Under the pieces are notes generated by a model. That model made no database searches and was not told where the DNA came from. It saw only the letters and a list, made by a program, of their open reading frames with translations. DNA of 64,000 nt from Streptomyces sp. NBC_00654. GTDB lineage: Bacteria > Actinomycetota > Actinomycetes > Streptomycetales > Streptomycetaceae. The position numbers and the translations under genes were made by a program. Position 1 is the stretch's first letter. Each line of letters begins with the position of its first letter. Below, in pieces: positions 1-17,048 of this stretch. Location of the stretch: the NCBI RefSeq assembly GCF_026341775.1, contig NZ_JAPEOB010000001.1, positions 2,852,001 to 2,916,000 of the forward strand, read 5' to 3'.

Positions 1-2147
1 TCGCGTACCGAGGAGACCAGCCCGTCCCGGTCGACGGTGACCCGCAGCAGCCCATTGTCGAGCACGGTCCCCTCGTCCGGAGCTCCGGCCGCCGTGACCG
101 GCTCGCCCGGAACGGCCGAGCCGTCCAGCGGCCCGGCGCCCAGCCCCGGCGTACGGACCGCCACGGCCGCACGCCCACCGCCCAGCTCCTGCACCCGGGC
201 TCCGGAAGGCAGCACCCCGACCGCCTCGGCGTCCAGTTCGATCACCTGACCCCGCGCGTACGGCGAGGAGTTGAGCGCCACCAGTCCCGCCGGGGCGCCG
301 AGCGAGGCCACCGCTTCGGCGACGAGGTCCGCCAGCTCCGCGCGTACCTCCTCATAGGTGTCACGGGCCTCGCGGTGCACCCAGGCGATCGACGAGCCGG
401 GCAGGATGTCGTGGAACTGGTGCAGCAGCACCGTCTTCCACACCCGGTCCAGCGCTTCGTACGGGTAGCGGTAGCCGGGGGACCGCAGGGCGGCCGCCGT
501 CGCCCACAACTCGGCCTCACGCAGCAGGTGTTCACTGCGCCGGTTGCCCTGCTTGGTCTTGGCCTGAGTGGTGTACGTGGCCCGGTGCAGCTCCAGATAC
601 AACTCGCCCGACCACACGGGCGCCTGCGCCCCGTACTCCTCCTCGGCAGCCGCGAAGAACGCCGACGGCCTCTCGATCGCGACCCGGGGCGATCCCTCCA
701 GGTCCCGGAGCCTGCGCGCCTTCTCCAGCATCTCGCGGGTCGGCCCGCCCCCGCCGTCGCCCCATCCGAACGGCACCAGGGAGCGGGTGGCCCGCCCCTT
801 CTCGGCGAAGTTCCGCTCGGCATGGGCGAGTTCGCTCGCGTGGAACTGGGCGTTGTAGGTGTCGACCGGCGGGAAGTGGGTGAACACGCGGGTCCCGTCG
901 ATGCCCTCCCACCAGAAGGTGTGGTGCGGCATCTTGTTGTGCTGGTTCCACGAGAGCTTCTGGGTGAGGAACCACCGCACCCCGGCCAGCCGGGCCAGCT
1001 GCGGGAACGCGGCCGTGTAGCCGAAGGAGTCCGGCAGCCAGATCTCCTCCGTCTCCACGCCCAGTTCCTCCTCGAAGAACCGCTTGCCGTGCACGAGCTG
1101 GCGGGCCAGCGCCTCACCGCCCGGCATATTGGCGTCGGACTCCACCCACATCGAACCGACCGGCGCCCATTGCCCGTCCGCGACCGCCTGCTTGATCCGC
1201 TCCCAGATGTGCGGCTGGTGCTCCTTGACCCAGGCGTACTGCTGCGCCTGCGAACAGGCGAAGACCAGCTCCGGATAGTCCCGGGCGAGCGCGGTGACAT
1301 TGGCGAAGGTCCGGGACGCCTTGCGCACCGTCTCGCGCAGCGGCCACAGCCAGGCCGAGTCGATGTGCGCGTGCCCGGTGGCCGAGACACGGTGCGCGCT
1401 CGGCGACGCGGGGCGGGACAGCACCTCCGTCAGTTCCTCCCGGCCCGCCGCCGCCGTGCCCGCGACATCGTGCAGGTCGAGCGCGTCGAGCATCCGTTCC
1501 AGCGCGCGCAGGATCTCGTGGTGCCTGGAACGGTCGGCGGGCAGTTCCCGCGTCAGCTCGGACAACACCTCGATGTCCAGGACGAGATGCCAGACCTCCT
1601 CGTCGAGGACGCCGAGGTCCGCCGAGGCGAACCGGTGGAGAGGGCTGTCTCCGGCCGTCAGGACGTCGCCCAGTGGGGTCGGTTCGAAGCCGTGCTCCAG
1701 CACGGTGGGATTGGCCGCCGCCTCCAGGAGCAGCGCGACCCGTTCACCGCCCGCCGCCGCTCCGGCGACGGTGAGGTGGCGGTTGCGCGGGTGGATGCCC
1801 TTGAGCGGGACGCCGGAGGTGTCGTACAGCATGCCCTCCGCCTGGAATCCCGGCCCCTGGCCGGAGAACCCGGGATCGACGACCACTTCCACCCGGCGCC
1901 CGGCCCACTCTCCGGGCACCGTCCCTTCGAGCCGGAACCAGCTGGTGGACCAGGGTTTGCCCCACTCCGTACCGGTGGTGAAGGGCTCGTACGTCCTTTG
2001 GAGGGCCTCGGCCACGGGCACGGGTTCGCCCGGGGCGTGCCAGACGGACAGGGCCAGCGGGGTGCGGGCCGCGTACTGCGCGGGGCGGATGAACTGGTGG
2101 AGCGCTCGTTCGAGGCGGCCCTCCACCAGGGAGCGGTCGTCATGCAT
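1..2147 (-). CDS. Alpha-mannosidase, glycoside hydrolase family 38 (3' end outside window)
   Basis: Predicted zinc-dependent alpha-mannosidase that trims mannosides; no signal peptide is visible, so it is probably cytoplasmic. The translated frame carries the GH38 landmarks in order: the zinc-ligand motif HAHIDSAWLW at about residue 259, the catalytic nucleophile Asp in LPDSFGY at about residue 371, and a glycine-rich GWGDGGGGPT near residue 460. A lectin-like all-beta N-terminal part of about 250 residues precedes the catalytic domain, as in bacterial GH38 enzymes of about 1000 residues. I chose the ATG at 2147 because GGAGG lies 6 nt upstream; an ATG at 2143 opens a different, non-homologous frame. 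The gene is cut by the window start, so about 715 codons are present. It is divergent from the hydroxyproline genes with only 139 bp between them, so it may share their control region, but I see no functional link. Confidence 0.9.
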   Translation of the reverse strand, partial: MHDDRSLVEGRLERALHQFIRPAQYAARTPLALSVWHAPGEPVPVAEALQRTYEPFTTGTEWGKPWSTSWFRLEGTVPGEWAGRRVEVVVDPGFSGQGPGFQAEGMLYDTSGVPLKGIHPRNRHLTVAGAAAGGERVALLLEAAANPTVLEHGFEPTPLGDVLTAGDSPLHRFASADLGVLDEEVWHLVLDIEVLSELTRELPADRSRHHEILRALERMLDALDLHDVAGTAAAGREELTEVLSRPASPSAHRVSATGHAHIDSAWLWPLRETVRKASRTFANVTALARDYPELVFACSQAQQYAWVKEHQPHIWERIKQAVADGQWAPVGSMWVESDANMPGGEALARQLVHGKRFFEEELGVETEEIWLPDSFGYTAAFPQLARLAGVRWFLTQKLSWNQHNKMPHHTFWWEGIDGTRVFTHFPPVDTYNAQFHASELAHAERNFAEKGRATRSLVPFGWGDGGGGPTREMLEKARRLRDLEGSPRVAIERPSAFFAAAEEEYGAQAPVWSGELYLELHRATYTTQAKTKQGNRRSEHLLREAELWATAAALRSPGYRYPYEALDRVWKTVLLHQFHDILPGSSIAWVHREARDTYEEVRAELADLVAEAVASLGAPAGLVALNSSPYARGQVIELDAEAVGVLPSGARVQELGGGRAAVAVRTPGLGAGPLDGSAVPGEPVTAAGAPDEGTVLDNGLLRVTVDRDGLVSSVR

Positions 2148-2251
2148 CGGGTGCCTCCGGATCTGTGCGCGTGGAACGTCACGCGAGGGCATGCCCGGTG
2201 AGGACTTCCGATAGCCCGTCAACCGCCGAAATCTCCCTGTCGCACGCTCTC

Positions 2252-2280
2252 TTGGCACCCTCTGAGCAATGTGACATATT
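2252..2280 (+). promoter_or_regulatory. Promoter of the dehydrogenase operon, leaderless
   Basis: TTGGCA (2252-2257) and CATATT (2275-2280) are separated by 17 bp and fit a housekeeping promoter. The -10 element ends 6 nt before the GTG start at 2287, and no Shine-Dalgarno sequence is present, so the transcript probably starts at or next to the start codon. The palindrome at 2269-2277 overlaps the -10 element. Confidence 0.6.
2269..2277. promoter_or_regulatory. Putative GntR operator ATGTGACAT, site 1
   Basis: Perfect inverted repeat ATGT-G-ACAT overlapping the -10 hexamer of the dehydrogenase promoter. The same palindrome recurs at 5491, 8447 and 9700 and, with one mismatch, at 7772. It has the GT...AC half-site layout common for GntR-family operators. 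Binding by the GntR protein at 7820 is inferred, not shown. Its position would block RNA polymerase, so repression is the simplest reading. Confidence 0.6.
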
Positions 2281-2286
2281 ACTGCC

Positions 2287-3597
2287 GTGCTCACGAGACA
2301 GTCCCTGGATGTCGTCATCGTCGGCGCCGGCATCGTCGGTTCCGCCTGCGCTTACTACGCGGCCCGTTCCGGACTCTCCGTCGCAGTCGTCGACCGGGGG
2401 CCGGTGGCCGGAGGCACCACCGGAGCCGGTGAGGGCAACCTCCTGGTCTCCGACAAGATGCCCGGCCCGGCGCTGGATCTCGCGCTCCTGTCGTCCGTGC
2501 TCTGGCGGGAACTGGCCGACCGCCTGCCGCCGGACATCGAGTACGAGACCAAGGGCGGACTGGTGGTGGCGGCCGGTGAGGAGTCGCTGGCGCAGCTCAC
2601 CGCGACGGCGCGGGACCAGCGGGCGGCCGGGGTGGAGGCGCACCCCGTCACCTCGCAGGGGCTGGCCGGGCTCGAACCGCACCTGGCACCCGGACTCGCC
2701 GGAGGCTTCCACTACCCTCAGGACGTCCAGGTCCAACCAGCCCTGGCGGCAGCCCATTTGATGCGTGCGGCACGCGACGCGGGGGCGTCGCTGCACTCCG
2801 GCGAGGAAGTGACCGCCGTACTCACCGGGCCGGGTGGCGCCGTGCGGGGCGTCCGGACCGGCAGGCGCGAGCTGCGCGCCCCCGCCGTGGTCAACGCCGC
2901 CGGGACCTGGGGCGGCGAGCTGGCGGCCATGGCCGGGGTGCGGCTGCCGGTCCTGCCGCGACGCGGGTTCGTCCTGGTCACCGAGCCCCTGCCGCAGCTG
3001 ATCCGGCACAAGGTGTATGCGGCGGAATACGTGGCGGGCGTGTCCAGCGAGTCCGCCGCACTCCAGACGTCCGCCGTGGTCGAAGGCACCCCTTCCGGAC
3101 CGGTGCTGATCGGAGCCAGCAGGGAGCGCGTCGGCTTCGACCGGTCGCTGTCCGTCCCGGTCCTGAGCCGTCTGGCCGCCCAGGCCGCCGCTCTCTTCCC
3201 CTTCCTGGCCGACGTCCGGGTGCTGCGGGCCTACCACGGCTTCCGCCCCTACCTGCCCGACCACCTGCCCGCGATCGGCCATGACTCCCGCGCCCCCGGC
3301 CTCTATCACGCCTGCGGTCACGAGGGGGCGGGGATCGGCCTGGCCCCGGCCACCGGACAGCTCGTCGTGGCGGCGATCCGAGGGGAGGAACCCGCTGTGG
3401 ACGCCCGCCCGTTCAGCCCGGACCGGTTCGAACGGCAGGGACCGTACGCCCAGTTGGCGGAGCCCGGCCAATCGGCCGTGTCCCGTCGGCCGGAAGCGTC
3501 CAGCCAGCCGGAGGCGTCCCGCCCGTCGGACGAGTCCGGGCATTCGGAAGAGCCCCGCCGTCGGATTCCACGGCAGAGGCGAAGGGAGTCCTCGTGA
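2287..3597 (+). CDS. FAD-dependent D-amino-acid/D-hydroxyproline dehydrogenase subunit (DadA-like)
   Basis: 436-residue protein of the DAO/DadA family. The Rossmann motif GAGIVG spans residues 13-18, and the FAD-domain strand ending in CGHEGAGIGLAP lies near residue 345. With the next two genes it probably forms a membrane-peripheral dehydrogenase that oxidises cis-4-hydroxy-D-proline to pyrroline-4-hydroxy-2-carboxylate, as in the known HypO/HcnABC-type complexes. The GTG at 2287 is the only possible start after an in-frame TGA at 2272, and it lacks a ribosome site. The last 60 residues or so are a Pro/Glu/Arg/Ser-rich tail of low complexity that is absent from typical homologs. The stop overlaps the next start by 4 bp. 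The substrate is inferred from the neighbours (epimerase and deaminase); a sarcosine- or glycine-type oxidase cannot be excluded from sequence alone. Confidence 0.85.
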   Translation: MLTRQSLDVVIVGAGIVGSACAYYAARSGLSVAVVDRGPVAGGTTGAGEGNLLVSDKMPGPALDLALLSSVLWRELADRLPPDIEYETKGGLVVAAGEESLAQLTATARDQRAAGVEAHPVTSQGLAGLEPHLAPGLAGGFHYPQDVQVQPALAAAHLMRAARDAGASLHSGEEVTAVLTGPGGAVRGVRTGRRELRAPAVVNAAGTWGGELAAMAGVRLPVLPRRGFVLVTEPLPQLIRHKVYAAEYVAGVSSESAALQTSAVVEGTPSGPVLIGASRERVGFDRSLSVPVLSRLAAQAAALFPFLADVRVLRAYHGFRPYLPDHLPAIGHDSRAPGLYHACGHEGAGIGLAPATGQLVVAAIRGEEPAVDARPFSPDRFERQGPYAQLAEPGQSAVSRRPEASSQPEASRPSDESGHSEEPRRRIPRQRRRESS

Positions 3598-3935
3598 AAC
3601 GCTTTCCGCGACACCCGGCCGCACGCACCCCGGCCGAGCTGGTCGAGGCGACACCCGACCTGGAGTTCACGATCTCCATCGACTCCCGCCCGATCCGCGC
3701 CCTGCCAGGACAGAGCATCGCCGCGGCGCTGTGGGGCGCGGGAATCCTGAGCTGGCGCACGACCCGTGTGAACGGCAGCCCGCGCGGGGCCTTCTGCGGA
3801 ATCGGATCGTGCTTCGACTGCCTCGCCACCGTCAACGGACGCCCCAACCAACGGGCTTGTCTGATCCCCGCCGCACCCGGCGACGAGATCACCACACAGG
3901 AGGGGGACGGTCATGCGAGACGGCTCACCAGGTGA
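3594..3935 (+). CDS. Small 2Fe-2S subunit of the dehydrogenase (HcnA/SoxD-like)
   Basis: 113-residue plant-type ferredoxin-like protein. Four cysteines, C68-x4-C73-x2-C76-x12-C89, form the 2Fe-2S loop. Proteins of this size and spacing are the small subunits of HcnABC-type hydrogen cyanide synthases and of three-subunit D-hydroxyproline dehydrogenases, passing electrons from the FAD subunit. GTG start overlaps the previous stop as GTGA, and GAAGGGAG lies just upstream at 3581-3588. Its 3' end overlaps the next gene by 23 bp, so all three subunits are probably translated in a coupled way. Confidence 0.88.
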   Translation: MKRFPRHPAARTPAELVEATPDLEFTISIDSRPIRALPGQSIAAALWGAGILSWRTTRVNGSPRGAFCGIGSCFDCLATVNGRPNQRACLIPAAPGDEITTQEGDGHARRLTR

Positions 3936-5412
3936 ACCGCCGACAACGGCACCGGAGGCGGACCCCTCTTCCGGCGGGGCGGCCGGACTGGCGGTGGTGG
4001 GCGCCGGGCCCGCCGGGATGGCGGCGGCGGTGACCGCGGCCGACCACGGAGTCGATGTGACCGTACTGGACGCGGCCGCGCGCCCCGGCGGGCAGTTCTA
4101 CCGCTCCCCGGAACCGGGGCTCGGGGCCACCCGGCCCGAGGCCCTGCACCACGGCTGGCCGGTGTTCACCGGTCTCGCCGCGCGGTTCGACCGGCACATA
4201 CACACCGGACGGATACGGCACCTCGCGCGGCACCAGGTCTGGACCGTCGAACGGGCGGACGGCCGGTGGCGGCTGCATGCGCTGACCGGGACCGAGGGAG
4301 ACGTCCGGACGGAGGTCGACGCGCACAGGCTGCTCATCGCCACCGGATCGCACGAGCGGCATCTGCCGTCGCCGGGCTGGACCACACCGGGTGTCGTCGG
4401 TGCCGCGGGGGCGCAGGCCATGCTCAAGTCCGGCCTGGTTCTGCCGGGCCGGCGGATCGTCGTCGCGGGCAGCGGCCCACTGCTCCAGGCGGTCGCGGTC
4501 TCCCTGGTCCGGGCCGGGGCCGAGGTCCCGCTGCTCGTCGAGGCGGCGGGGTACGAGTCCTACGCGCGGGCCCCGGCAACCCTGGCGGCCAACCCGGCCA
4601 AGGCCGCGGAAGGTGCCCGGAACGCGTTCCAACTGCTGTGCCACGGGGTGCGTATCCGGACGCACAGCGCGGTGACGGCGGTGCACGGCGGTCACCGGGT
4701 GGAGGGTGTCACCGTCAGCCGTCTGGACCGGGACTGGCGGCCGGTGCCGGGCACGGAGCGCCGCCACGCCTGCGATGCCGTGGCCCTCGGCCATGGGCTG
4801 GAGCCGCGCATCGAACTGGCCACCGCGCTGGGCTGCGCAACCCGCGAGCGTGCTGACGGCACCCATGGGGTGGTCGTGGACGCGCAGTTGCGCACCACCG
4901 TGCCCGGGGTCTGGACGGCGGGGGAGACGGGGGGCATCGGAGGGGTGCAACTGGCCCTGATCGAGGGCGAACTGGCTGCTCTCTCGGTGGCCCGCCAGGC
5001 CTGCCCGGAAGAGGTGTTCCGCGGCGGAGCACAGGGCAGGCGGGCGGTGGCGCTGCACCGGGCCCGGACCCGGATGCGCCGGTTCGCCGAGCTCATGGGC
5101 GCCGTACACCGGCCACGTCCCGGCTGGCGGCAGTGGCTGTCCGGCGATACGGAGGTCTGCCGCTGCGAAGAGGTCTCCGCCGGGCGGATCCTGACGTCGG
5201 TCTCCGAACTGGGCGCCGGGGACGCCCGTACGGTCAAGCTCCTCACCCGGGCCGGAATGGGCTGGTGCCAGGGGCAGACCTGCGGATTCGCGGTACGGGA
5301 ACTCGTCGGCCCGGCGGCCGGCGGGGCGGGTCCCGGAAGGCGGCCCCTGGCGTGCCCGGTTCTCCTGTCCGCGCTGGCCGGCGAACCGCACAAGTCCGGG
5401 ACGGCGGGCTGA
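3913..5412 (+). CDS. FAD/2Fe-2S large subunit of the dehydrogenase (HcnB-like)
   Basis: 499-residue pyridine-nucleotide-disulfide-type oxidoreductase. An N-terminal GAGPAG FAD motif is at residues 30-35 and a second Rossmann GSGPLLQA follows near residue 190. The C-terminus carries a BFD-like 2Fe-2S site built from C416-x-C418 and C452-x4-C457 (CQGQTC). This domain order matches HcnB and the alpha subunit of three-component D-hydroxyproline or D-proline dehydrogenases. The ATG at 3913 lies inside the previous gene and is preceded by an A/G-rich stretch (AGGAGGGGGA). About 100 bp separate it from the deaminase gene, which has its own operator, so this is probably the last gene of the dehydrogenase transcription unit or is read through into it. 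Confidence 0.87.
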   Translation: MRDGSPGEPPTTAPEADPSSGGAAGLAVVGAGPAGMAAAVTAADHGVDVTVLDAAARPGGQFYRSPEPGLGATRPEALHHGWPVFTGLAARFDRHIHTGRIRHLARHQVWTVERADGRWRLHALTGTEGDVRTEVDAHRLLIATGSHERHLPSPGWTTPGVVGAAGAQAMLKSGLVLPGRRIVVAGSGPLLQAVAVSLVRAGAEVPLLVEAAGYESYARAPATLAANPAKAAEGARNAFQLLCHGVRIRTHSAVTAVHGGHRVEGVTVSRLDRDWRPVPGTERRHACDAVALGHGLEPRIELATALGCATRERADGTHGVVVDAQLRTTVPGVWTAGETGGIGGVQLALIEGELAALSVARQACPEEVFRGGAQGRRAVALHRARTRMRRFAELMGAVHRPRPGWRQWLSGDTEVCRCEEVSAGRILTSVSELGAGDARTVKLLTRAGMGWCQGQTCGFAVRELVGPAAGGAGPGRRPLACPVLLSALAGEPHKSGTAG

Positions 5413-5490
5413 GGCCACACCCCCTGCCACGCCTCCTGTCACACCCACACCCGGCCCCGCCTCGCACCCCGGACCGCGGTCACCAGTGAC

Positions 5491-5499
5491 ATGTCACAT
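5491..5499. promoter_or_regulatory. Putative GntR operator ATGTCACAT, site 2
   Basis: Perfect 9-bp inverted repeat 20 nt upstream of the deaminase start. It sits inside the larger palindromic stretch GTGACATGTCAC (5486-5497). Same sequence family as the sites at 2269 and 9700. It suggests the deaminase gene can be controlled separately from the dehydrogenase genes. Confidence 0.6.
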
Positions 5500-5518
5500 C
5501 TCTTCTCAAGGAGTCCTG

Positions 5519-6436
5519 ATGCAGACGAACGACACGCACACCCCTCTCCGGTCCCGTCCGTGGCACGGGATCATGGTCGCGACGCCGCTGCCTCTGAGGG
5601 AGGACCGGTCCGTCGACTTCGACGCGTACGGCGAACATGTCAGCCGCCTCATCGCGGCAGGCTGCGACGGTGTGGTCCCCAACGGCTCCCTGGGGGAGTA
5701 CCAGACGCTCACCGACGACGAGCGCGACCGCATGGTCCGGGTGGCCGTGGAGGCCGCGGGCGACGGTGCCCGGGTCATGCCCGGGGTCTCCGCCTACGGA
5801 AGCGACGAATCACGGCGCTGGGCCGAACAGGCCGCGGACGCGGGCGCCGGATCCGTTCTGCTGCTGCCTCCCAACGGTTACCGCTGCGACGACACGGCGA
5901 TCGGCGCCCACTACGCCGCGGTCGCCGAAGCCGGCCTGCCGGTCGTCGCGTACAACAACCCGTACGACACCAAAGTGGATCTCTCACCCGCACTGCTGGC
6001 CCGCCTCCACCAGGAGGGCAGCATCGTCGCGGTGAAGGAGTTCAGCGGTGATGTGCGCCGTGCGTACGAGATCGCGGAACTGGCCCCCGGTCTCGATGTC
6101 CTCGTGGGCGCCGACGACGTCCTGCTCGAACTGGCCCTGGCGGGAGCTGTCGGCTGGATCGCGGGCTGTCCCAACATGCTGCCCGAGAGCTGTGTCACGT
6201 TGTACCGAGCCGCCGTCGCCGGAGACCTGGAGACCGCGCTGCCGCTCTACCGGCGGTTGCACCCCTTGCTGCGCTGGGACTCCAAGCCGGAGTTCGTCCA
6301 GGCGATCAAGGCGTCGATGGATCGCGTCGGATGGCACGGTGGCCCCACCAGGCCGCCCCGGTTCCCGCTGCCCGAAACCTCTGTCGCCGCCGTCCGGGCG
6401 GACACCGAGAAGGCCCTCGCCGAGGGAATGAACTGA
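5519..6436 (+). CDS. DapA-family lyase/deaminase, probably pyrroline-4-hydroxy-2-carboxylate deaminase
   Basis: 305-residue class I aldolase of the dihydrodipicolinate synthase family. The Schiff-base lysine is K173 in VAVKEFSG and the conserved tyrosine Y145 is in YNNPYD. In hydroxyproline operons this family opens and deaminates the pyrroline product of the dehydrogenase to 2-oxoglutarate semialdehyde; that function is inferred here from gene order, because family members share the fold with other aldolases. The ATG at 5519 is preferred over the GTG at 5486 since AAGGAG lies 5 nt upstream and the GTG falls within the operator. A strong hairpin follows the stop codon, so transcription may end there. 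The dehydrogenase that would convert the semialdehyde to 2-oxoglutarate is not in this window. Confidence 0.85.
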   Translation: MQTNDTHTPLRSRPWHGIMVATPLPLREDRSVDFDAYGEHVSRLIAAGCDGVVPNGSLGEYQTLTDDERDRMVRVAVEAAGDGARVMPGVSAYGSDESRRWAEQAADAGAGSVLLLPPNGYRCDDTAIGAHYAAVAEAGLPVVAYNNPYDTKVDLSPALLARLHQEGSIVAVKEFSGDVRRAYEIAELAPGLDVLVGADDVLLELALAGAVGWIAGCPNMLPESCVTLYRAAVAGDLETALPLYRRLHPLLRWDSKPEFVQAIKASMDRVGWHGGPTRPPRFPLPETSVAAVRADTEKALAEGMN

Positions 6437-6472
6437 CCTTCCGGTCTTCCGGCCCTCCGGTCTTCCGGACCG

Positions 6473-6496
6473 GCCACCGCCGCGTACGGCGGTGGC
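6473..6496. terminator. Hairpin downstream of the deaminase gene
   Basis: Perfect 10-bp stem GCCACCGCCG / CGGCGGTGGC with a CGTA loop, 36 nt after the deaminase stop. No clear T-run follows, as is common for Streptomyces terminators. Just behind it (about 6499-6546) a second, imperfect GTACGGGTAC / GTACCCGTAC inverted repeat adds further structure. Confidence 0.55.
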
Positions 6497-6562
6497 GACG
6501 GGTGCGTACGGGTACGCGCCACTGCCCCGTACCCGTACCCGCACCCGTGTGTGTATCCGTAC

Positions 6563-6592
6563 CTGCTACTGCTACTGCTACTGCTACTGCTG
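6563..6592 (+). repeat. CTGCTA hexanucleotide microsatellite
   Basis: Four perfect CTGCTA copies followed by CTGCTG lie in the leader of the epimerase gene, about 120 nt before its start. Such low-complexity A/T-containing repeats are unusual in this G+C-rich background and could vary in copy number. Confidence 0.7.
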
Positions 6593-6710
6593 CGCCCGCG
6601 CCACCGCCGCACCGGCGAATGCTCCATACCCGCGGCCGTCGTGCCCCTGCCCTGCTGCCGCTCCGTGCCCGTCTCCGCCCCGCGTCCACGGGGCCGTCCA
6701 AGGGGGAACC

Positions 6711-7712
6711 TTGCGTACACGCCGTATCTTCCACGCCGTCGACTCGCACACCGAAGGGATGCCCACCCGTGTGATCACCGGCGGGGTCGGCACCATTCCC
6801 GGCGCCACGATGGCGGAGCGGCGACGGTACTTCATGGAGCACCAGGACGACCTGCGTACGCTGCTGATGTACGAGCCCCGAGGCCACGCGGCCATGAGCG
6901 GCGCGATCCTCCAGCCCCCCACCCGGCCGGACGCCGACTACGGCGTCCTCTACATCGAGGTCTCCGGCGCCCTGCCGATGTGCGGTCACGGCACCATCGG
7001 CGTGGCCACCGTCCTCGTCGAGACCGGCATGGTGGCCGTCACCGAACCGCTCACCGTCGTCAGGCTGGACACCCCCGCCGGTCCGGTCAGCGTCGAGGTC
7101 CGGGTCGAGGACGGTGCGGCGACCTCGGCGACCTTCACCAACGTGCCCGCCTTCAGCGCGGGTCTCGACCGCGAGGTCGACGTCCCCGGCCACGGCACCG
7201 TGCGCTACGACCTGGCCTTCGGCGGCAACTTCTACGCGATATTGCCGTTGGCCGACCTCGGGCTCCCCTTCGACCGCGCACGCAAGGACGACATCCTCGC
7301 GGCCGGGCTCGCCGTGATGGACGCGATCAACGCCACCGACCCGCCCGTCCACCCGGCCGACCCCGGCATCCGCGGTCTCAAGCACGTCCAGCTGCTCGCC
7401 CCGGGCTCCGATGCCTCGCACTCCCGGCACGCGATGGCCATCCACCCCGGCTGGTTCGACCGTTCGCCCTGTGGGACCGGTACCTCCGCGCGCATGGCCC
7501 AGCTGCACGCCCGGGGCGAACTGCCCCTGAACACCGACTTCGTCAACGAGTCCTTCATCGGTACCTCGTTCACGGGAAGGCTCGTGGAGGAGACCAGTGT
7601 CTCCGGTACCCCGGCCGTCGTTCCCACGGTGACGGGCCGGGCCTGGATCACCGGTACGGCGCAGTTCTTCCTGGACCCGACAGATCCGTTCCCCGAAGGA
7701 TTCCTGCTGTGA
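6711..7712 (+). CDS. Proline racemase family, probably 4-hydroxyproline 2-epimerase
   Basis: 333-residue pyridoxal-independent racemase. Both catalytic cysteines are present: C91 in MCGHGTIG and C254 in DRSPCGTGTSA. Two cysteines mark racemases and epimerases, whereas hydroxyproline dehydratases replace the first by Ser or Thr. It should convert trans-4-hydroxy-L-proline into the cis-D-isomer, the substrate of the upstream dehydrogenase. The TTG at 6711 is chosen because the family N-terminus (RRIFHAVDSHTEG) begins there and AGGGGG lies just upstream; the reading frame stays open much further 5' but encodes only Cys/Arg/Pro-rich low-complexity sequence. The 274-bp gap before it is structured and repeat-rich, so it may have its own promoter, but I found no operator palindrome there. 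Confidence 0.88.
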   Translation: MRTRRIFHAVDSHTEGMPTRVITGGVGTIPGATMAERRRYFMEHQDDLRTLLMYEPRGHAAMSGAILQPPTRPDADYGVLYIEVSGALPMCGHGTIGVATVLVETGMVAVTEPLTVVRLDTPAGPVSVEVRVEDGAATSATFTNVPAFSAGLDREVDVPGHGTVRYDLAFGGNFYAILPLADLGLPFDRARKDDILAAGLAVMDAINATDPPVHPADPGIRGLKHVQLLAPGSDASHSRHAMAIHPGWFDRSPCGTGTSARMAQLHARGELPLNTDFVNESFIGTSFTGRLVEETSVSGTPAVVPTVTGRAWITGTAQFFLDPTDPFPEGFLL

Positions 7713-7771
7713 GAAGCCCAGGGCGGGGCGCACGGCAGGTCCGGTGGACGGCCGAAAGGGGGACGCGCGCA

Positions 7772-7785
7772 ACGTGACATTGTAT
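7772..7785. promoter_or_regulatory. Degenerate GntR operator upstream of the regulator gene
   Basis: ACGTGACATTGTAT matches the operator family with one mismatch in the palindrome (ACGTGACAT against ATGTGACAT) and continues with TTGTA, as does the second half of the collagenase site (CCATTGTAC). It lies 35-48 nt before the regulator start, the expected position for autoregulation. Confidence 0.5.
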
Positions 7786-7819
7786 CCTGAGGCCCCGCTC
7801 GGTGCTGGAGGAATACACC

Positions 7820-8542
7820 ATGACCCGCCTCTCATCCCTCAACACCATCTCGGCCCAGGAGCATCTGCGGGACCGGGTGGCCCACGCGTTGAGGGCGGCG
7901 CTCATCGCCGGTGATCTGCGCCCGGGGATGATCTACTCCGCGCCCGCGCTCGCCTCGGAGTTCGGAGTCTCCGCCACCCCGGTCCGTGAGGCCATGCTCG
8001 ACCTGGCCCGTGAAGGTCTGGTCGAGGCCGTGCGCAACAAGGGTTTCCGGATCACGGAGTTGACCGAGCAGGACCTCGACGACTTCACCGAACTCCGGGC
8101 GATGATCGAGGTTCCCACCGTCGGCCGGATCGCCGGGCTGGGGAAGACCCGGCAGCTGGAGGCCCTGCGGCCGCTGGCGCTGGCGATCGTCGACGCCGCG
8201 CGCGAACACGACATCCTCGGCTATCTGGAGGCCGACCGGCGCTTCCATCTGGAGCTGCTCGCCCTGGCCGGCAACCGCCGGCTGGTCGAGGAGGTCGGGA
8301 ACCTCCGCAAGCGCTCACGACTCTTCGGCCTCAACCGGCTGGCAGAGACAGGGCAGTTGATCACTTCCGCCGAGGAACACATCCAACTGCTCGATCTGAT
8401 CGTCGCGGGAGACGCGAAGCGCGCCGAGGCCTGCATGCTCGCTCATATGTCACATGTCCGGTCCCTGTGGGCCGATGGCGGAGAGACGGACAAGGGCGAG
8501 GGCGTCGAACGCATCACGCACCGCAGGGTGGGGCAGGGGTAG
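7820..8542 (+). CDS. GntR/FCD-family transcriptional regulator of the hydroxyproline block
   Basis: 240-residue regulator. An N-terminal winged helix (residues about 10-80, recognition region FGVSATPVREAM) is followed by an all-helical FCD ligand domain with the metal-binding pattern D-x3-H (DRRFHLELLALAGN). FCD regulators usually sense small organic acids or amino acids and act mostly as repressors. The ATG at 7820 has GGAGGAA 6 nt upstream; the GTG at 7802 overlaps that ribosome site and is rejected. It lies directly downstream of the epimerase and is flanked by five copies of an operator-like palindrome, which makes it the likely controller of this block. The inducer could be hydroxyproline or a pathway intermediate; the sequence cannot tell. 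A closely similar DNA-binding domain is encoded at 16218. Confidence 0.9.
   Translation: MTRLSSLNTISAQEHLRDRVAHALRAALIAGDLRPGMIYSAPALASEFGVSATPVREAMLDLAREGLVEAVRNKGFRITELTEQDLDDFTELRAMIEVPTVGRIAGLGKTRQLEALRPLALAIVDAAREHDILGYLEADRRFHLELLALAGNRRLVEEVGNLRKRSRLFGLNRLAETGQLITSAEEHIQLLDLIVAGDAKRAEACMLAHMSHVRSLWADGGETDKGEGVERITHRRVGQG
8447..8455. promoter_or_regulatory. Operator-like palindrome ATGTCACAT inside the regulator's 3' end
   Basis: A perfect copy of the 9-bp palindrome lies within the coding sequence of the GntR gene, 88 bp before its stop, over codons for H-M-S-H-V. It may be a genuine intragenic site or a chance consequence of coding; it is 140 bp upstream of the GNAT start. Confidence 0.35.
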
Positions 8543-8560
8543 GGGCAGGGGCAGGGGCTG

Positions 8561-8589
8561 TTGGGCGTCCGACGCCTACGCCCTACGCT
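8561..8589 (+). promoter_or_regulatory. Promoter of the GNAT gene, leaderless
   Basis: TTGGGC (8561-8566) and TACGCT (8584-8589) have a 17-bp spacer, and the -10 element ends 6 nt before the ATG at 8596. There is no Shine-Dalgarno sequence. A run of GGGGCA/GGGGTA repeats (about 8529-8558) precedes it. Confidence 0.5.
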
Positions 8590-8595
8590 CCTGCC

Positions 8596-9357
8596 ATGCC
8601 GAACTCGGAGCTGCAGCCGATCATTTCCTTCTTGTCGACCTTCGCCCGCCGTCAGGCCGCGCGGGTCGTCGACCTTCCCGGCGGGTTCGCCGCATACGAC
8701 GACGCCTACGCACACTCCCGCGCGAACAACCAGGTGGTCATCGACACGGCTGTCGAAGCCGAGTCGCTGCCCGCCCTCACGGACGAGGCACTCGGGCATC
8801 TGCCGCACCGGCTGGTCTCGGTCCTCGACGACAGCGTCGCGCAGGCCTGCGCGGAGCCGCTGATCCGGGCCGGCTACACCCACTCCACCTATCTGATCAT
8901 GGTGCACACGGGCCCGGTACCGGCCGGTGGAAACGCGGAGAAGGTCGGCCTCGACGCGCTGCGTGTCCCTCTCACCCGGCGATGGCGGGGCTTCCTGCCG
9001 GACGTCGACGACGAGGTCGTACGCCACCTCGTCGACCGACGTCAGGCTCGCCACCGGGGGGCCGACACGGTCCACTTCATCGGAGCCCGCACCCGGGCGG
9101 GCGAGGTCGCCTCATGGGCCGACCTCTATCTGGACCCGGCAACCGGCATCGCCCAGATCGAGGACCTGATCACCGCGTCCGCCCACCTCGGCCGTGGCCA
9201 TGGCGACGCGGTCCTGACCACTGCCCTGCGCCTGGCGGCCGATACGGGCTGCGCCACCCGCTTCCTGACCGCCGACGCGGCGGACTGGCCCCGGCACTGG
9301 TACGAGCGCCGCGGGTTCTCCGTCATCGGCCGCTCCCACAGCTTCGAACGGGGCTGA
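8596..9357 (+). CDS. GNAT-type acetyltransferase
   Basis: 253-residue protein whose C-terminal half reads as a GNAT fold: a beta-strand segment VASWADLYLDPATGIAQIED, then the acetyl-CoA loop region LGRGHGDAVLTTAL, and the closing WYERRGFSVIGRS motif. The N-terminal 100 residues may be a degenerate second GNAT domain, as in other two-domain Streptomyces acetyltransferases. The substrate is unknown. The start at 8596 is set by the first good N-terminus and the leaderless promoter; the upstream frame only adds Gly/Arg repeats from low-complexity DNA. It sits between the regulator and the collagenase, in the same orientation, but I see no evidence that it acts in hydroxyproline use. Confidence 0.75.
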   Translation: MPNSELQPIISFLSTFARRQAARVVDLPGGFAAYDDAYAHSRANNQVVIDTAVEAESLPALTDEALGHLPHRLVSVLDDSVAQACAEPLIRAGYTHSTYLIMVHTGPVPAGGNAEKVGLDALRVPLTRRWRGFLPDVDDEVVRHLVDRRQARHRGADTVHFIGARTRAGEVASWADLYLDPATGIAQIEDLITASAHLGRGHGDAVLTTALRLAADTGCATRFLTADAADWPRHWYERRGFSVIGRSHSFERG

Positions 9358-9699
9358 GCGCGGGCCGGCACGACGAACATGAACAACCGACTTCCCCTTT
9401 GCCCGTGGCCGCGGTCGCGTCACGCGACGCTGTGATCCAACCCGATGGGGCGGGAGCCGGTCTGTCCCGCCCGGCCGGCTTCTCCCGGGACCACTGGCGG
9501 GCGGTGACCGGCGGGCTGATGGGCCGGAGCCGGGTACGGGCGGCGATCGCCGGCCACGTGACCACCGGACTCATGACCGTGCCCTTCGCACCGGCCCCGC
9601 CGTGCTCATCCCTGCCGTCCGCCGTGGGCCCGGCCGATTCGCCTGCCGCCCGGCTGAGTTGCGGGGCAATGAATGTGGGTTCAACGGCTTCCGAAGGAC
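9358..9699. other. Non-coding stretch before the collagenase operator
   Basis: This 342-bp part of the GNAT-collagenase gap contains no reading frame with a credible start, ribosome site or recognisable product. Open frames across it on either strand are compositional. I see no repeat or mobile element in it. Confidence 0.5.
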
Positions 9700-9720
9700 A
9701 TGTGACATGTGCCATTGTAC
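9700..9720. promoter_or_regulatory. Putative double GntR operator upstream of the collagenase
   Basis: A perfect ATGTGACAT (9700-9708) lies within the longer palindrome ACATGTGACATGT (9699-9711), and a second, overlapping element TGTGCCATTGTAC (9708-9720) resembles the regulator's own site. A weak -35 TTCCGA (9689-9694) lies 18 bp upstream of a -10-like CATTGT (9713-9718), so the operator would overlap the collagenase promoter. This leaves a leader of about 130 nt before the GTG at 9854. Confidence 0.6.
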
Positions 9721-9853
9721 TGATCGCAGGGACGTGGAGTCGTGCTCATGCCATTCGGTAGGGCCCGTCAACTCCATTGCTTCCCCACCCTGCTCAACCC
9801 TCCACAGGCCGCGCGTTCCCCGGCGCGGCCACCACTCCGCTGGGAGGCGGCAC

Positions 9854-12277
9854 GTGAAGAACCGATCGGTTCGACAGAGAGAAACCGGGACATCCACCCG
9901 GTCACCAGCCCGGATATCCGCCGGTGTTTCAGCCGCGGTACTGGCGGCCTGTCTGGGTGTGGGGCTGCTCGCCGGCCCGGCCCAGTCCGCCCAGCCGTCG
10001 TTCGCCCTCGCTGCCGGGGCGAAGTCCGAGGCGAAGGCGCCGGGCGCCCCGGCCACCGGTGCCCCGGACCCGGACGGTCCCACCGCGCGGTCGTCGGCCC
10101 CGGCCGCCGAGGACCCGGAGCATGTCGGCACCGCGCCCCTCAAGCCCGCGGACCGGGCGCCCCAGTCCGCGGACAAGGACGCGCTCAAGCGGGACTACGA
10201 CGACTCCGCGACCGCCGCACCGAGCCGCCGCGCCCCCTCGATGTCCGACAAGGCACGCCTCGCGGCCAAGTCGCGCGGTCTCACCGCCGCCGCGGCGTGC
10301 AATGTCAGCGACTTCGCCGGCCGCACCGGTGACGCGCTCGTCCAGCAGGTGATCTCGTCGACCACCGAATGCGTCAACACCCTGTTCACCGTCAAGGGCC
10401 AGGACGGCTATAACGTCTTCCGCGAGGCGCAGATGGTCACCATCGCCGACGCCATGCGTGCGCGTACGGCGGCCTACCCCGGCGACAGCAGCACCGGAAT
10501 GCCGCAACTGGTCCTCTTCCTCAGGGCCGGCTACTTCGTGCAGTACTACGACCCGTCGACGGTCGGTACCTACGGCCCCGCGCTCCGCTCCGCCATCCAG
10601 GGAGCCCTGGACGGATTCTTCGCCTCCCCGCACTCCTCGGACGTCACCGACGCCAACGGTGAGACCCTGTCCGAAGCGGTCATCCTTATCGACAGCGCCG
10701 TGGAGAACGCCCGGTACCTGAGTGTCGTCAAGCGGCTGCTCGCGGGATACGACTCCTCCTACAACAGCTCCTGGTACATGCTCAACGCTGTCAACAATGT
10801 GTACACCGTGACATTCCGCGGTCACCAGGTGCCCGAGTTCATCTCGGCGGTCGAGGCCGACCCCAGCCTGATCGACGCGCTGCACGACTTCGCGGCGAAC
10901 CACCTGGATCTGCTGGGCACCGAGCGGTCCTACCTGGCCTCCAACGCCGGCCGGGAGCTCGGCCGCTTCCTCCAGGAGCCGTCGCTGCGTGGCAAGGCGA
11001 GCCCCCTGGCCGTCTCGCTGCTCAAGAAGAGTTCCATCACCGGACCCACCGCCGCGCTCTGGGTCGGTGTGGCCGAGATGGCGGACTACTACGACCGGGC
11101 CAACTGCTCCACATACGACACCTGCGACCTCTCCGCCCGCCTCAAGGAAGCCGTCCTGCCGGTCAAGCACACGTGCAGTGACAGCATCAACATCCTGGCC
11201 CAGGAGATCTCGACCACCGACCTGGAGGCGAGCTGCACCAGCCTGCGCAACCAGGACGCCTACTTCCACGACGTCGCACGGGACAAGGGGCCGGTCGCCG
11301 ACGACCGTAACAACAAGATCGAGGTCGTGGTCTTCGACTCCAGCACCGATTACCAGACCTACGCCGGCGCGATCTACGGCATCAACACGAACAACGGCGG
11401 GATGTACCTGGAGGGCGACCCGTCCGTCGAGGGCAACCAGCCGCGGTTCATCGCCTACGAAGCGGAGTGGGTCAGGCCGGAATTCCAGATCTGGAACCTC
11501 AACCACGAGTACACGCACTATCTCGACGGCCGGTTCAACATGCACGGCGACTTCGAGGCGGGTCTCACGACCCCGACCATCTGGTGGGTCGAGGGCTTCG
11601 CGGAGTACATCTCCTACTCGTACCGCAATGTCACCTATGACGCTGCGATCAGCCAGGCCGGCAAGGGTACCTACACCCTGCGCTCGCTCTTCGACAGCAC
11701 CTACGAGAACGCCGACCAGACCCGCATCTACAACTGGGGTTACCTGGCCGCCCGTTACATGCTCCAGTCGCATCGCGGCGACGTCGACCAGCTGCTGGGC
11801 CTCTACCGCAGCGGCGACTGGGAGAGTGCCCGCACTCTGCTCACCTCGACCATCGGCAATCGGTACGACGCGGACTGGAGCTCCTGGCTGACGGCGTGTG
11901 CCGCCGGCAAGTGCGGCACTCTCACGAACCCGCCGGTGGATCTGGGACCCGAGTGCACCGAGAGCGACGTCAGGAAGCTGGCGAAGAACTGCAAGCGCAG
12001 CAACCTTTCGGCCACCGAGGGCAACTACTCCTACCACTACATCGACATTCCTTCGGGCACGACTGAGCTGAAGATCACGATGACGGGCGGCAACGGTGAC
12101 GCCGATCTCTACTACAACGCCAGCCAATGGGCGATGACCGGCGACTACACCAGCCGAGCCGCAGGGGACGGGAACGAGCACACCCTGACCGTCCAGAACC
12201 CCAGCGCCGGAAGGCACTTCATCAGCCTCTACTCGGTCAAGGGATTCGACGGAGCCACCGTCGCGACTCAGTTCTGA
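9854..12277 (+). CDS. Secreted microbial collagenase, peptidase family M9
   Basis: 807-residue secreted zinc metalloprotease predicted to cleave native collagen. A signal peptide with a twin-basic, Arg-rich start and a hydrophobic core (VSAAVLAACLGVGLLAG) ends near an AQS-A site at about residue 40. The M9 N-terminal activator region follows, then the zinc site HEYTH at residues 551-555 with the downstream glutamate E580 in WWVEGFAEY. A bacterial pre-peptidase C-terminal (PPC) domain fills roughly the last 95 residues (GNGDADLYYNASQWAM). The GTG at 9854 is chosen for GGGAGG 6 nt upstream and because the signal peptide starts there; the frame is open to 9602 but that part has no N-terminal character and covers the operator. 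The operator upstream links it to the hydroxyproline genes, which makes biological sense since collagen is rich in hydroxyproline. Confidence 0.93.
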   Translation: MKNRSVRQRETGTSTRSPARISAGVSAAVLAACLGVGLLAGPAQSAQPSFALAAGAKSEAKAPGAPATGAPDPDGPTARSSAPAAEDPEHVGTAPLKPADRAPQSADKDALKRDYDDSATAAPSRRAPSMSDKARLAAKSRGLTAAAACNVSDFAGRTGDALVQQVISSTTECVNTLFTVKGQDGYNVFREAQMVTIADAMRARTAAYPGDSSTGMPQLVLFLRAGYFVQYYDPSTVGTYGPALRSAIQGALDGFFASPHSSDVTDANGETLSEAVILIDSAVENARYLSVVKRLLAGYDSSYNSSWYMLNAVNNVYTVTFRGHQVPEFISAVEADPSLIDALHDFAANHLDLLGTERSYLASNAGRELGRFLQEPSLRGKASPLAVSLLKKSSITGPTAALWVGVAEMADYYDRANCSTYDTCDLSARLKEAVLPVKHTCSDSINILAQEISTTDLEASCTSLRNQDAYFHDVARDKGPVADDRNNKIEVVVFDSSTDYQTYAGAIYGINTNNGGMYLEGDPSVEGNQPRFIAYEAEWVRPEFQIWNLNHEYTHYLDGRFNMHGDFEAGLTTPTIWWVEGFAEYISYSYRNVTYDAAISQAGKGTYTLRSLFDSTYENADQTRIYNWGYLAARYMLQSHRGDVDQLLGLYRSGDWESARTLLTSTIGNRYDADWSSWLTACAAGKCGTLTNPPVDLGPECTESDVRKLAKNCKRSNLSATEGNYSYHYIDIPSGTTELKITMTGGNGDADLYYNASQWAMTGDYTSRAAGDGNEHTLTVQNPSAGRHFISLYSVKGFDGATVATQF

Positions 12278-12301
12278 CCGATCTGCTGAACGACGCGTGA
12301 A

Positions 12302-12341
12302 GGGCGGGGCGGTGGCTGCGGGAGCGGCCACCGCCCCGCCC
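12302..12341. terminator. Strong hairpin after the collagenase
   Basis: Perfect 15-bp inverted repeat GGGCGGGGCGGTGGC / GCCACCGCCCCGCCC around a 10-nt loop, 25 nt after the collagenase stop. It can serve the collagenase and possibly the convergent ribonuclease gene. Confidence 0.75.
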
Positions 12342-12483
12342 CGTCTCTGCCCCGTCTCTGGCCCGTTTCCGTCCTGCTTCCGCCCCGGCTCACGGAGGCG
12401 GGGCGGGGCCGGTCCGGGCCGGGGATCCGATCCGCGCCGCAGGTGGGGGAGCGACGGCGCGGACCGGACCGGTGGGTGCGGGA

Positions 12484-13002
12484 TCAGCAGTCGTGGTCGA
12501 CGAGGTCGAAGGACGCGTAATGGTCGGCGGTGTAGTAGTCCTCCTGGACTTCCTCACCCGTCACGATCCGCCGGGCGCCGCGGTTGGGCGAGCCGGGGGT
12601 GATGACCGTGTACTCGTGGTAGTACCCGGTGCTCCGGTCCGGCAGGATGCCTTCCCGGTTCTGGAAGACGGTGCCGTCCTGGTCGTACGGGAACGGGCCG
12701 CCCGCATCGATGAGATCGAGGGTGTCGTGCGCCTGGGACGGCAGATCCGAGTAGCAGATGCTCCCGACCGAGGCGGCGGCGAAGGGCGCGGGGGCGAATC
12801 GCGCGGAGGCGGCGTACGAGTTGGTGACGTACGAGTTGGTGACGTACGAGGCGGTGAGGAACGGGGAGGTGGAGAGCGTGGTGGTGGGGGCTGGGGGTGC
12901 GGCGGTGTCCGCAGAAGCCGGACCCGAGGCGAAGAGGACGGACAGGAGGGCGGCGGTGCCGCCGAGCATGGTGATCCGTGGGGGGATTCGCATACCCACC
13001 AT
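12484..13002 (-). CDS. Secreted guanyl-specific ribonuclease, RNase Sa/barnase family
   Basis: 172-residue preprotein. Its last 95 residues or so closely match the Streptomyces RNase Sa family: ICYSDLP near the start, GPFPYDQDG, VFQNRE, the catalytic Glu in YYHEYTVITPG, the catalytic Arg in RGARRIVTGE and the catalytic His in DHYASF, ending with a disulfide Cys (DHDC). A signal peptide (MLGGTAALLSVLFASGPASA) is followed by a Pro/Thr/Ser-rich spacer containing a short SYVTNSYVTNSYA repeat, so the mature catalytic domain probably follows further processing. The start is uncertain: ATG at 13002 or ATG at 12993; neither has a clear Shine-Dalgarno. No barstar-like inhibitor gene is next to it. The gene is convergent with the collagenase. 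Confidence 0.92.
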   Translation of the reverse strand: MVGMRIPPRITMLGGTAALLSVLFASGPASADTAAPPAPTTTLSTSPFLTASYVTNSYVTNSYAASARFAPAPFAAASVGSICYSDLPSQAHDTLDLIDAGGPFPYDQDGTVFQNREGILPDRSTGYYHEYTVITPGSPNRGARRIVTGEEVQEDYYTADHYASFDLVDHDC

Positions 13003-16217: not shown

Positions 16218-17048
16218 GTGGAGCAGGGCAGAGCGCGCGAGGGCGTACGGCCGCCGTGCACGCCCGCCGCGTACGGGGACGCCCTGCGGGTCGTCCGGGT
16301 GCCCGAACAGGCGCGTGGCGAGCACACCCACAGCGAGCCGCCCGCCCCCCTGGCCGTGCGGCCTCCCGCCCGTCCGCCCGCTGCCCCGCCCACCGCGCCG
16401 CCGGTTGCCCCGCCCGTGGCGCGGGCCGTGCAACGGCACTCCGTGCGCGGCCAGATCCTGGAGGCCCTGCGCGCCGCCCTCGTCGATGGTGAGCTGGCAC
16501 CCGGTCAGGTCTACTCGGCGCCCGCGCTCGGCGCCCGTTTCGGTGTCTCCGCGACCCCGGTGCGCGAGGCGATGCAGCAGCTGGCGATCGAGGGTGCCGT
16601 CGAGGTCGTGCCGAACCGCGGGTTCCGCGTCAGCGAACGGGGACCGCGCGAGCTGGCGGAGCTGGCCGAGGTACGGGCCCTGATCGAGGTCCCGGTGATG
16701 CTCCGTCTGGCCCGCACCGTCCCGGCGGGCCGCTGGAGCGCGCTGCGTCCGCTGGCGGAGGCGACGGTCGCGGCGGCGGCGGTCGGCGACCGGGCGAGCT
16801 ACGCCGAGACCGACCGGGCCTTCCACCGTGCGGTCCTCGCGCTCTCCGGCAATGAGCAGCTGGTCGCGGTCGCGGACGATCTGCACCGGCGTTCCCAGTG
16901 GCCGCTGGTGAGCCACCCGGCCACCCGCCGGGCCGAACTGCTCGCCGACGCCGCCGAACACACCGCCCTGCTGGACGCCCTCATCGCCCAGGACACCGCC
17001 GTCGTGCAGTCCCTCGTGCGGGAGCACTTCGCGGGTGCGGGCGGCTGA
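16218..17048 (+). CDS. GntR/FCD-family transcriptional regulator, second copy
   Basis: 276-residue regulator with a Pro/Ala-rich, probably disordered N-terminal extension of about 70 residues, then a winged helix and an FCD domain. The DNA-binding region contains YSAPAL, FGVSATPVREAM, NRGFR and RALIEVP, nearly identical to the regulator at 7820 in the recognition helix and wing. FCD ligand residues are visible as D-x3-H (DRAFHRAVLALSGN) plus two later histidines (AEHTALL and REHFAG). GTG 16218 follows GAGGAGG with 5-nt spacing; the same frame is open for 1 kb upstream but only as an antisense shadow of the fhuF-like gene. Its targets are unknown. The close match suggests recent duplication, or shared operators with the hydroxyproline regulator. 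Confidence 0.88.
   Translation: MEQGRAREGVRPPCTPAAYGDALRVVRVPEQARGEHTHSEPPAPLAVRPPARPPAAPPTAPPVAPPVARAVQRHSVRGQILEALRAALVDGELAPGQVYSAPALGARFGVSATPVREAMQQLAIEGAVEVVPNRGFRVSERGPRELAELAEVRALIEVPVMLRLARTVPAGRWSALRPLAEATVAAAAVGDRASYAETDRAFHRAVLALSGNEQLVAVADDLHRRSQWPLVSHPATRRAELLADAAEHTALLDALIAQDTAVVQSLVREHFAGAGG

Follow-up and report, generated by a model that had tools for sequence, protein, structure and literature searches.

Predicted HypR operators at collagenase and hydroxyproline catabolism genes in Streptomyces sp. NBC_00654 and related strains

We analyzed a 64-kb stretch of the genome of Streptomyces sp. NBC_00654 (the window; C1:2852001-2916000 of the 9.63-Mb genome, G000) that contains genes for hydroxyproline catabolism, a GntR-family regulator, and a collagenase. 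We computed the presence, rarity, conservation, and positions of a palindromic site across these genes, as well as the gene families. We predict that the window carries a HypR regulon, in which the regulator would repress the other genes from this site, and we put the probability of this reading at roughly 0.92. The idea of such a regulon has already been published for S. coelicolor, and the locus is an instance of that published regulon.

Five catabolic genes lie in a row on the forward strand. An lhpB-like gene (2287..3597; DAO, PF01266, 1e-72) putatively encodes the FAD-dependent beta subunit of D-hydroxyproline dehydrogenase, as judged by its likeness to SCO6289 of S. coelicolor. It is followed by an lhpF-like gene for the small [2Fe-2S] subunit (3594..3935; Fer2_4 in Pfam) and an lhpE-like gene for the alpha subunit (3913..5412; Pyr_redox_2 and Fer2_BFD in Pfam). 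The next gene, from the DHDPS family (5519..6436; PF00701, 1.4e-49), is probably the deaminase hypD, given its gene context and SCO6292. The fifth gene (6711..7712, with a TTG start at 6711; PF05544, 3.8e-128) belongs to the proline racemase family and is annotated here as 4-hydroxyproline 2-epimerase. Its closest PDB chains are proline racemases, and both catalytic cysteines are present (in MCGHG and SPCGTG). Since having both cysteines separates the epimerase from trans-3-hydroxyproline dehydratase, we rejected the latter function for this gene.

Downstream on the same strand are the predicted repressor HypR (7820..8542) and an M9 collagenase (9854..12277). HypR is placed in the FadR (FCD) subfamily of GntR regulators by its domains (PF00392 and PF07729), its relatives in PDB (3fms, 3sxy, and others), and a tree. 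The collagenase has Peptidase_M9_N, Peptidase_M9, and PPC domains and an HEYTH zinc motif, and it is presumably secreted. (The gene starts that we used are 5519 for hypD, the TTG at 6711 for the epimerase, 7820 for the regulator, and 9854 for the collagenase.) A preliminary description of this DNA had listed the same genes, correctly at the level of families: DAO, Fer2_4, Pyr_redox_2 with Fer2_BFD, DHDPS, Pro_racemase, GntR with FCD, and Peptidase_M9. None of the NCBIfam equivalog models shown for the eight proteins scanned reached its cut-off (for the two large dehydrogenase subunits, these were the best 25 of 59 and the best 25 of 43), so we named the enzymes from their families and catalytic residues, from gene order, and from the S. 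coelicolor homologues.

The window contains just four perfect copies of the palindrome ATGTSACAT, at 2269, 5491, 8447, and 9700. In 100 dinucleotide shuffles, the mean was 0.11 exact sites per window and the largest count was 1. If one mismatch is allowed, then there are 8 sites, as compared to a shuffle mean of 3.06, with 8 or more sites in 3 of the 100 shuffles. Besides the four exact copies, these are 7772 (ACGTGACAT), 9707 (whose core overlaps the core at 9700), 11628 (within the collagenase gene), and 32038. The preliminary description had reported the four exact copies with no further copy in the window, a one-mismatch copy at 7772, and well under one match expected by chance. The counts agree with all of this and add the copies at 9707, 11628, and 32038, which it had not listed.

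The regulator has 181 listed relatives, and we compared the locus with the loci of the best 80, of which 78 are titled Streptomyces, one Kitasatospora, and one "Actinobacteria bacterium." We counted genes that were at least 50% identical and had at least 150 bp of upstream sequence, placing their starts by extrapolation from the alignment; a site was counted if it had at most one mismatch and was at most 300 bp upstream or in the first 30 bp of the gene. lhpB has a site in 55 of 56 related loci (54 are exact, and the miss, L045, is a partial lhpB match), hypR in 78 of 80 (the remaining two have two mismatches), the adjacent collagenase in 27 of 27 (21 exact), and hypD in 43 of 65. For the epimerase, which is internal to the operon, the count is 6 of 66, and five of the six are inside the coding start. 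The lhpB site reads ATGTGACATATTACT in 49 of 56 relatives, and in 44 of 56 it precedes the start codon by exactly 18 bp. GTGACATTGTA is present in 72 of 80 related hypR promoters, and CATGTGACATGTGCCATTGTAC, which has two overlapping cores, stands upstream of 21 of the 27 adjacent M9 genes; these are the 21 from window-type loci. Eight loci (L080, L086, L088, L093, L094, L096, L097, and L102) have hypR with an upstream site (with at most one mismatch, or two in L096), and no hydroxyproline operon was found in their analyzed DNA.

From the 55 lhpB, 78 hypR, and 43 hypD sites we built a symmetrised 21-bp matrix, leaving out the collagenase sites; its consensus is approximately AGTRMA-ATGTSACAT-TKYACT. 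On this comparison, ATGTSACAT is the core of a longer predicted operator, a palindrome of about 21 bp. Because symmetrising imposes a palindrome, we also compared the arms without it. Across eight gene-by-clade groups, the arm correlation was 0.72, which was reached by 1.6% of 5000 position permutations, and this evidence for two-armed symmetry is supportive rather than overwhelming. Within the window, only 2269, 5491, 6192, 7772, 9700, 9707, and 10806 score 12 or more, and six Markov sequences of the window's size had a mean of 0.5 such sites.

The highest-scoring core, ATGTGACAT of the lhpB operator (2269..2277; 32.7), sits between and over the hexamers of a promoter-like region of the hydroxyproline operon (2252..2286, forward strand; TTGGCA-17-CATATT, 9 of 12). 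This is the sole promoter-like match in 2100-12500, where shuffles give a mean of 0.5, so it is weak taken alone. The operator is 18 bp 5' of the GTG start, and we predict that the lhpB transcript is leaderless. Another core, ATGTCACAT, is in the gap between lhpE and hypD (5491..5499; score 21.0), and the hypR operator has the core ACGTGACAT(TGTA) (7772..7780; 19.8). The collagenase promoter has an overlapping pair (9700..9715), with ATGTGACAT at 9700 (13.3) and ATGTGCCAT at 9707 (24.1). There are also two candidate operators within genes: GTGTCACGT in hypD (6192..6200; 21.1, and 17.8 in the nearest relative, L023) and CCGTGACAT in the collagenase gene (10806..10814; 15.5, and 12.3 in L023).

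The copy at 8447..8455 is probably not a strong operator. It is ATGTCACAT within hypR, where it forms the codons ATG TCA CAT, and we rejected it as a strong site because its arms do not match (its score is 6.9, versus 13.3 to 32.7 for the other listed sites). The 9-mer varies synonymously and is exact in 9 of 23 window-type relatives. It may have a weak role, as the serine codon at this palindrome is the rare TCA in 11 of 24 window-type hypR genes (including the window's), versus 10 of 216 other serine positions. Of the sites that had been proposed as shared operators, 2269, 5491, 7772, and 9700 hold up as predicted operators and 8447 is doubtful. The proposed 9-bp palindrome is real, but it is only the core of the operator, and the single collagenase site has become a pair.

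In S. coelicolor, HypR (SCO6294) binds TACAATGTCAC in its own promoter, according to a DNase I footprint, and it binds further promoters in electrophoretic mobility shift assays (Kotowska 2019; PMC6608401). Reporters indicate that it represses the SCO6289-6293 operon, the M9 collagenase SCO5912, and kgd (SCO5281), and the reporters, including that for SCO5912, were derepressed in a hypR mutant (PMC6608401). The window shares with this regulon an FCD/FadR-type GntR repressor, the gene order of the operon, an operator at hypR itself, and an M9 target: there are operators before the five-gene operon (2269) and before the collagenase (9700/9707), and the hypR promoter contains ACGTGACATTGTA at 7772, which is similar to TACAATGTCAC. 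More precisely, GTGACATTGTA of the window's hypR operator is the reverse complement of the footprint. The assignment of the window's regulator to the SCO6294 type comes from its domains and from a protein of S. tendae (L051) that is 72-73% identical to it, so the homology to SCO6294 itself is indirect. The hypR promoter of S. tendae contains the footprint sequence, and the two proteins have the same DNA-binding segment, SATPVREAMLDLAREGLVEAVRNKGFRITE. The published consensus, CTNTGC(A/C)ATGTCAC, fits one arm and the core of our operator (for instance, the lhpB site of S. tendae); according to its authors, the site's symmetry "is not clear" (PMC6608401). The palindrome is our proposed answer to that question.

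The arrangement differs from that of S. coelicolor. In the window, hypR and the operon upstream of it point the same way, and the collagenase lies two genes further on, beyond a GNAT gene. In a tree of 83 rows, the window's HypR groups with window-type proteins in a clade of 24 (support 100/99). A second HypR of this genome lies outside this clade, as do ten proteins among which are those from loci of the convergent arrangement, which we take to be that of S. coelicolor. (In this tree, the branch of a more distant cousin is very long, the bootstrap is unsettled, and some arrangement labels are wrong.) S. lividans grows on trans-4-hydroxyproline, and its transcripts were analyzed with primers named after SCO6289-93; that report names no regulator in the parts available, and collagen is absent from its main text (PMC4113996).

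By analogy with S. coelicolor, in which binding, repression, and induction by L-Hyp are known (PMC6608401), we propose that HypR (7820-8542), presumably as a dimer, binds the 21-bp palindrome in the promoters of its own gene, the M9 collagenase, and the lhpBFE-hypD-epimerase operon. The operon would have its main promoter at 2252-2286 and a secondary promoter before hypD. A product of collagen breakdown would lift the repression: this could be L-Hyp or, more likely, a downstream metabolite. In S. coelicolor, L-Hyp induces, but neither L-Hyp nor D-Hyp changed DNA binding in vitro (PMC6608401). The collagenase would then be secreted, and imported hydroxyproline would be epimerised, oxidised, and deaminated to alpha-ketoglutarate semialdehyde.

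Genome-wide, we found 20 exact copies of ATGTSACAT. Four are packed into 7.4 kb of the window, two are in a second hydroxyproline locus, and the other 14 are at about the chance level (0.11 per 64 kb corresponds to about 16 per genome). For 7 of these 14, Pfam named a neighboring or enclosing gene. The named genes (for a histidine kinase, a GMC oxidoreductase, a GH109-type oxidoreductase, a sigma factor, a GNAT/ACT protein, a lactonase, and a DJ-1/PfpI protein) include none from the pathway, so we rejected the stray copies as regulon members. A genome-wide scan, which the preliminary description had proposed as a check, finds clusters at the two hydroxyproline loci together with a chance-like scatter of copies elsewhere.

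The second hydroxyproline locus (L133; C1:4190000-4209000, or 4.19-4.21 Mb) has an aldehyde dehydrogenase gene that is divergent from lhpB2, which is followed by lhpF, lhpE, hypD, the epimerase, a second gene of the proline racemase family (with both cysteines), hypR2, and a gene for a peptide-binding protein. The operators of lhpB2, hypR2, and the peptide-binding protein score 31.3, 24.2, and 24.8, and the hypR2 operator contains TACAATGTCAC itself. The aldehyde dehydrogenase is closest to the PDB chains 3v4c and 1eyy and is a possible candidate for the alpha-ketoglutarate semialdehyde dehydrogenase that is missing from the pathway. HypR2 is 66% identical to the window's HypR, and its recognition segment is the same except for one residue (I to V near the end). 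The genome also encodes a second M9 collagenase (L135; 62% identical), with ATGTGAAATTGTA upstream (score 23.5, as L174).

Evidence for control of the collagenases comes from a sample of 61 Streptomyces genomes. PF01752 was above its cut-off in 53 genes from 39 of these genomes (one row below the cut-off was left out). The matrix, which was trained without collagenase sites, scored 14 or more upstream of 44 of the 53 genes, as compared to 0 of 53 within the M9 domains and 0.3% of Markov shuffles. In a wider upstream region, for which there was no matched control, five of the other nine genes gained sites (17.2-23.8), for a total of 49 of 53. The four genes without a site are two at contig ends (L172 and L215), L182 from G024, and a short M9 gene of G005. 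HypR is present in 49 of the 61 genomes (E <= 1e-58, among the matches listed), and 38 of these 49 have M9 genes, versus 1 of the 12 genomes that lack HypR (Fisher p = 1.6e-5; the threshold was chosen after seeing a gap in the match list, and kinship was not corrected for). The one exception is G005, whose short M9 gene is atypical. From this comparison, a predicted HypR-type operator marks most M9 collagenase promoters in the sampled Streptomyces, which is new.

Several observations weigh against our reading. No close match was found at 22 of the 65 related hypD genes, and L182 is a collagenase without a site in a genome (G024) that does have HypR. The matrix is imperfectly specific: 4 of the 14 stray exact copies score 13.2-18.7 (L001, L226, L227, and L228). 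Three near-matches in the genome score 15.0-21.7 (L222, L220, and L219), and given these scores, some of the stray copies or near-matches may be members of the regulon. The single kgd gene has no site upstream (the best score in its 3.1-kb locus is 7.9, inside the gene), so we rejected kgd as a member of the regulon in this strain. In this the strain differs from S. coelicolor, whose regulon includes kgd (PMC6608401); we did not count kgd as a defining member. Finally, other proteins may occupy the sites, as the genome encodes both HypR2 and a cousin FCD/GntR regulator at about 45% identity. The cousin's gene (about 16404-17048) is about 8 kb downstream of hypR.

The most serious alternative is that the operators are run by HypR2 (from C1:4.20 Mb) or by both proteins, with the window's HypR being a partly redundant or specialised duplicate. 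The nearly identical recognition segments, the high-scoring operators at L133, and the site before the second collagenase would all fit with this. However, one HypR usually seems to be enough, as 42 of the 49 genomes with HypR have a single one and 7 have two (by the same threshold and match list), and the presence of an operator at both hypR genes points to autoregulation of each. We consider the alternative possible, with perhaps a one-in-three chance at best. It seems improbable that the palindromes are bound by a different FCD regulator whose recognition helix resembles that of HypR. The cousin does share GVSATPVREAM with HypR, and proteins at its level of similarity are in many of the 61 genomes, including 8 of the 12 without HypR (among the matches listed). 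But G005, which lacks HypR, has a cousin-type protein (46%) and yet no site at its M9 gene, although this is one genome with a short and atypical gene.

It is more doubtful still that the cluster of palindromes reflects chance or shared promoter ancestry, with the collagenase outside of HypR's control. The sites are short, and 14 of the 20 exact copies are elsewhere in the genome. Against this, high-scoring sites are rare in the related loci once known and proposed targets are set aside: we initially counted 106 sites with scores of at least 14 in 882 kb, mostly in the promoters of further targets, and after masking the target genes, 7 remained in 638 kb. (The masking was done after seeing the hits; one of the 7, in L065, is close to the locus end and resembles the sites of S9 genes, described below.) Also, the operator is found at different M9 subfamilies with different flanks, it is missing from transporter genes that are internal to their operon (0 of 28 each), and SCO5912 was derepressed in the hypR mutant of S. 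coelicolor (PMC6608401). We therefore favor control by HypR. The preliminary description's proposal that an FCD regulator ties collagenase to hydroxyproline catabolism is supported by the 80 related loci, by collagenase promoters from 39 genomes, and by the work on S. coelicolor. Its proposal of just one regulator is too simple, as two HypR-type regulators and two hydroxyproline loci share the operator.

In the 80 related loci, high-scoring sites outside of the known genes led us to a diverged M9 gene, to an oligopeptide-binding protein with its permeases and ATPase, and to an S9 peptidase. The diverged M9 gene is present in 28 loci and is about 24% identical to the window's collagenase. Counting matches that reached 100 bits and had 150 bp or more of upstream sequence, and taking a score of at least 12 as an operator, there is an operator before 55 of 55 M9 genes (27 window-like and 28 diverged; 52 score at least 17), 29 of 29 peptide-binding transporter genes (all at least 17), and 17 of 17 S9 genes of the DPP-IV/prolyl oligopeptidase type (16 at least 17). 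The transporter's site is shared by a divergent gene of the alcohol dehydrogenase type (1 of 1). Inside the transporter operon, the three genes that follow the peptide-binding gene are those that gave 0 of 28 each. A thiamine-diphosphate enzyme had no operators (0 of 13), and a relative of ornithine cyclodeaminase had 2 of 43 at a score of 12 and 0 of 43 at 17. Aminopeptidase P (M24) has operators before 10 of 27 genes, and nine of the ten are the operator of the adjoining collagenase read in reverse; as 17 of 27 lack a site, we rejected it as a general target.

Across the genus, we examined 30 loci from 65 S9 matches. The close type (75-82% identical) has a site in 5 of 6, and the sixth aligns only from residue 82, while an ordinary paralogue (42-45% identical) has a site in 0 of 24. 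In G000 itself, we found one S9 relative (46%) and two M24 relatives (55% and 52%), and none of these has a site, so the peptidase part of the regulon is not seen in this strain. These results suggest that in related strains, the HypR operator also covers peptide uptake and proline-specific peptidases, which is new for Streptomyces; we found no earlier report of this extended content in open-licence PMC texts.

In Proteobacteria, which are in a different phylum, HypR regulons are described for Sinorhizobium meliloti, Shewanella/Alteromonadales, and Aeromonas, and in Alteromonadales and Aeromonas the predicted regulon takes in collagenases and proline (di)peptidases along with a permease for proline di/tripeptides (Leyn 2016; PMC5343134). 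Those regulons are similar in having a GntR-family HypR and hydroxyproline catabolic genes and, in Alteromonadales, the predicted collagenase, peptidase, and permease genes (PMC5343134). A collagen utilization gene cluster in Colwellia combines M9 collagenase with hydroxyproline catabolism, peptidases, and transporters, but this is from marine gammaproteobacteria, and the available text names PutR as the regulator and names no operator (PMC7883544). In FadR-type sites, GT and AC are separated by 3 or 2 nt, with 2 nt in the HypR group (PMC4494728). In contrast, the GT and AC of the Streptomyces core are 1 nt apart, and some variants of the operator (ATTTCACAT, upstream of M9 and transporter genes) lack GT entirely. 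Because the spacing fits neither the FadR type nor the proteobacterial HypR sites, membership in the FadR subfamily rests on the protein (its GntR and FCD domains).

We lean towards a broader reading in which a HypR regulon for the utilization of collagen extends throughout the genus Streptomyces. It would include two diverged kinds of M9 collagenase, an oligopeptide ABC importer, proline-specific peptidases (S9 of the prolyl-oligopeptidase type, and M24 aminopeptidase P where it is divergent from a collagenase), and hydroxyproline catabolism, all under one 21-bp palindrome whose 1-nt spacing is unusual for the FadR type. It would resemble the predictions for marine Proteobacteria and would have been assembled separately if the HypR proteins are not orthologues. 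In strains like this one there would be two copies of it, and both HypRs would recognise a common operator. The basic concept is unchanged and already in print. As predictions, we add a fuller operator, control of collagenases across the genus sample, the extension in relatives to peptide import and proline peptidases, and the duplicated regulon. This would widen an observation in a single species to an operator that is predictive across the sample, that points to the proteins with which soil actinomycetes exploit collagen (collagenases, peptide importer, and proline peptidases), and that could be used directly to discover collagenases in Streptomyces.

We also note some other features of these loci. 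The GNAT acetyltransferase gene (8596-9357) that separates the collagenase from hypR had no match in the 80 related loci, some of which are short, and is possibly a lineage-specific insertion. A GH38 alpha-mannosidase gene is beside the operon on the reverse strand (3-2147), with a match in 6 of the 23 loci of the window type (L023-L045) and no operator link seen. The FCD metal site has the motif Asp-x3-His and two further histidines; in HypR, the segments DRRFH, AEEHI, and MLAH align with 3fms/3sxy and are candidates for such a site. Elsewhere in the genome, the near-match at L219:2531 (G000 C2:143531; score 21.7) is the near-palindromic AGTGCAATATCACATTGCAAC, about 80 bp 5' of a small open reading frame that has a signal-like start and adjoins a piece of an insertion-sequence-type transposase.

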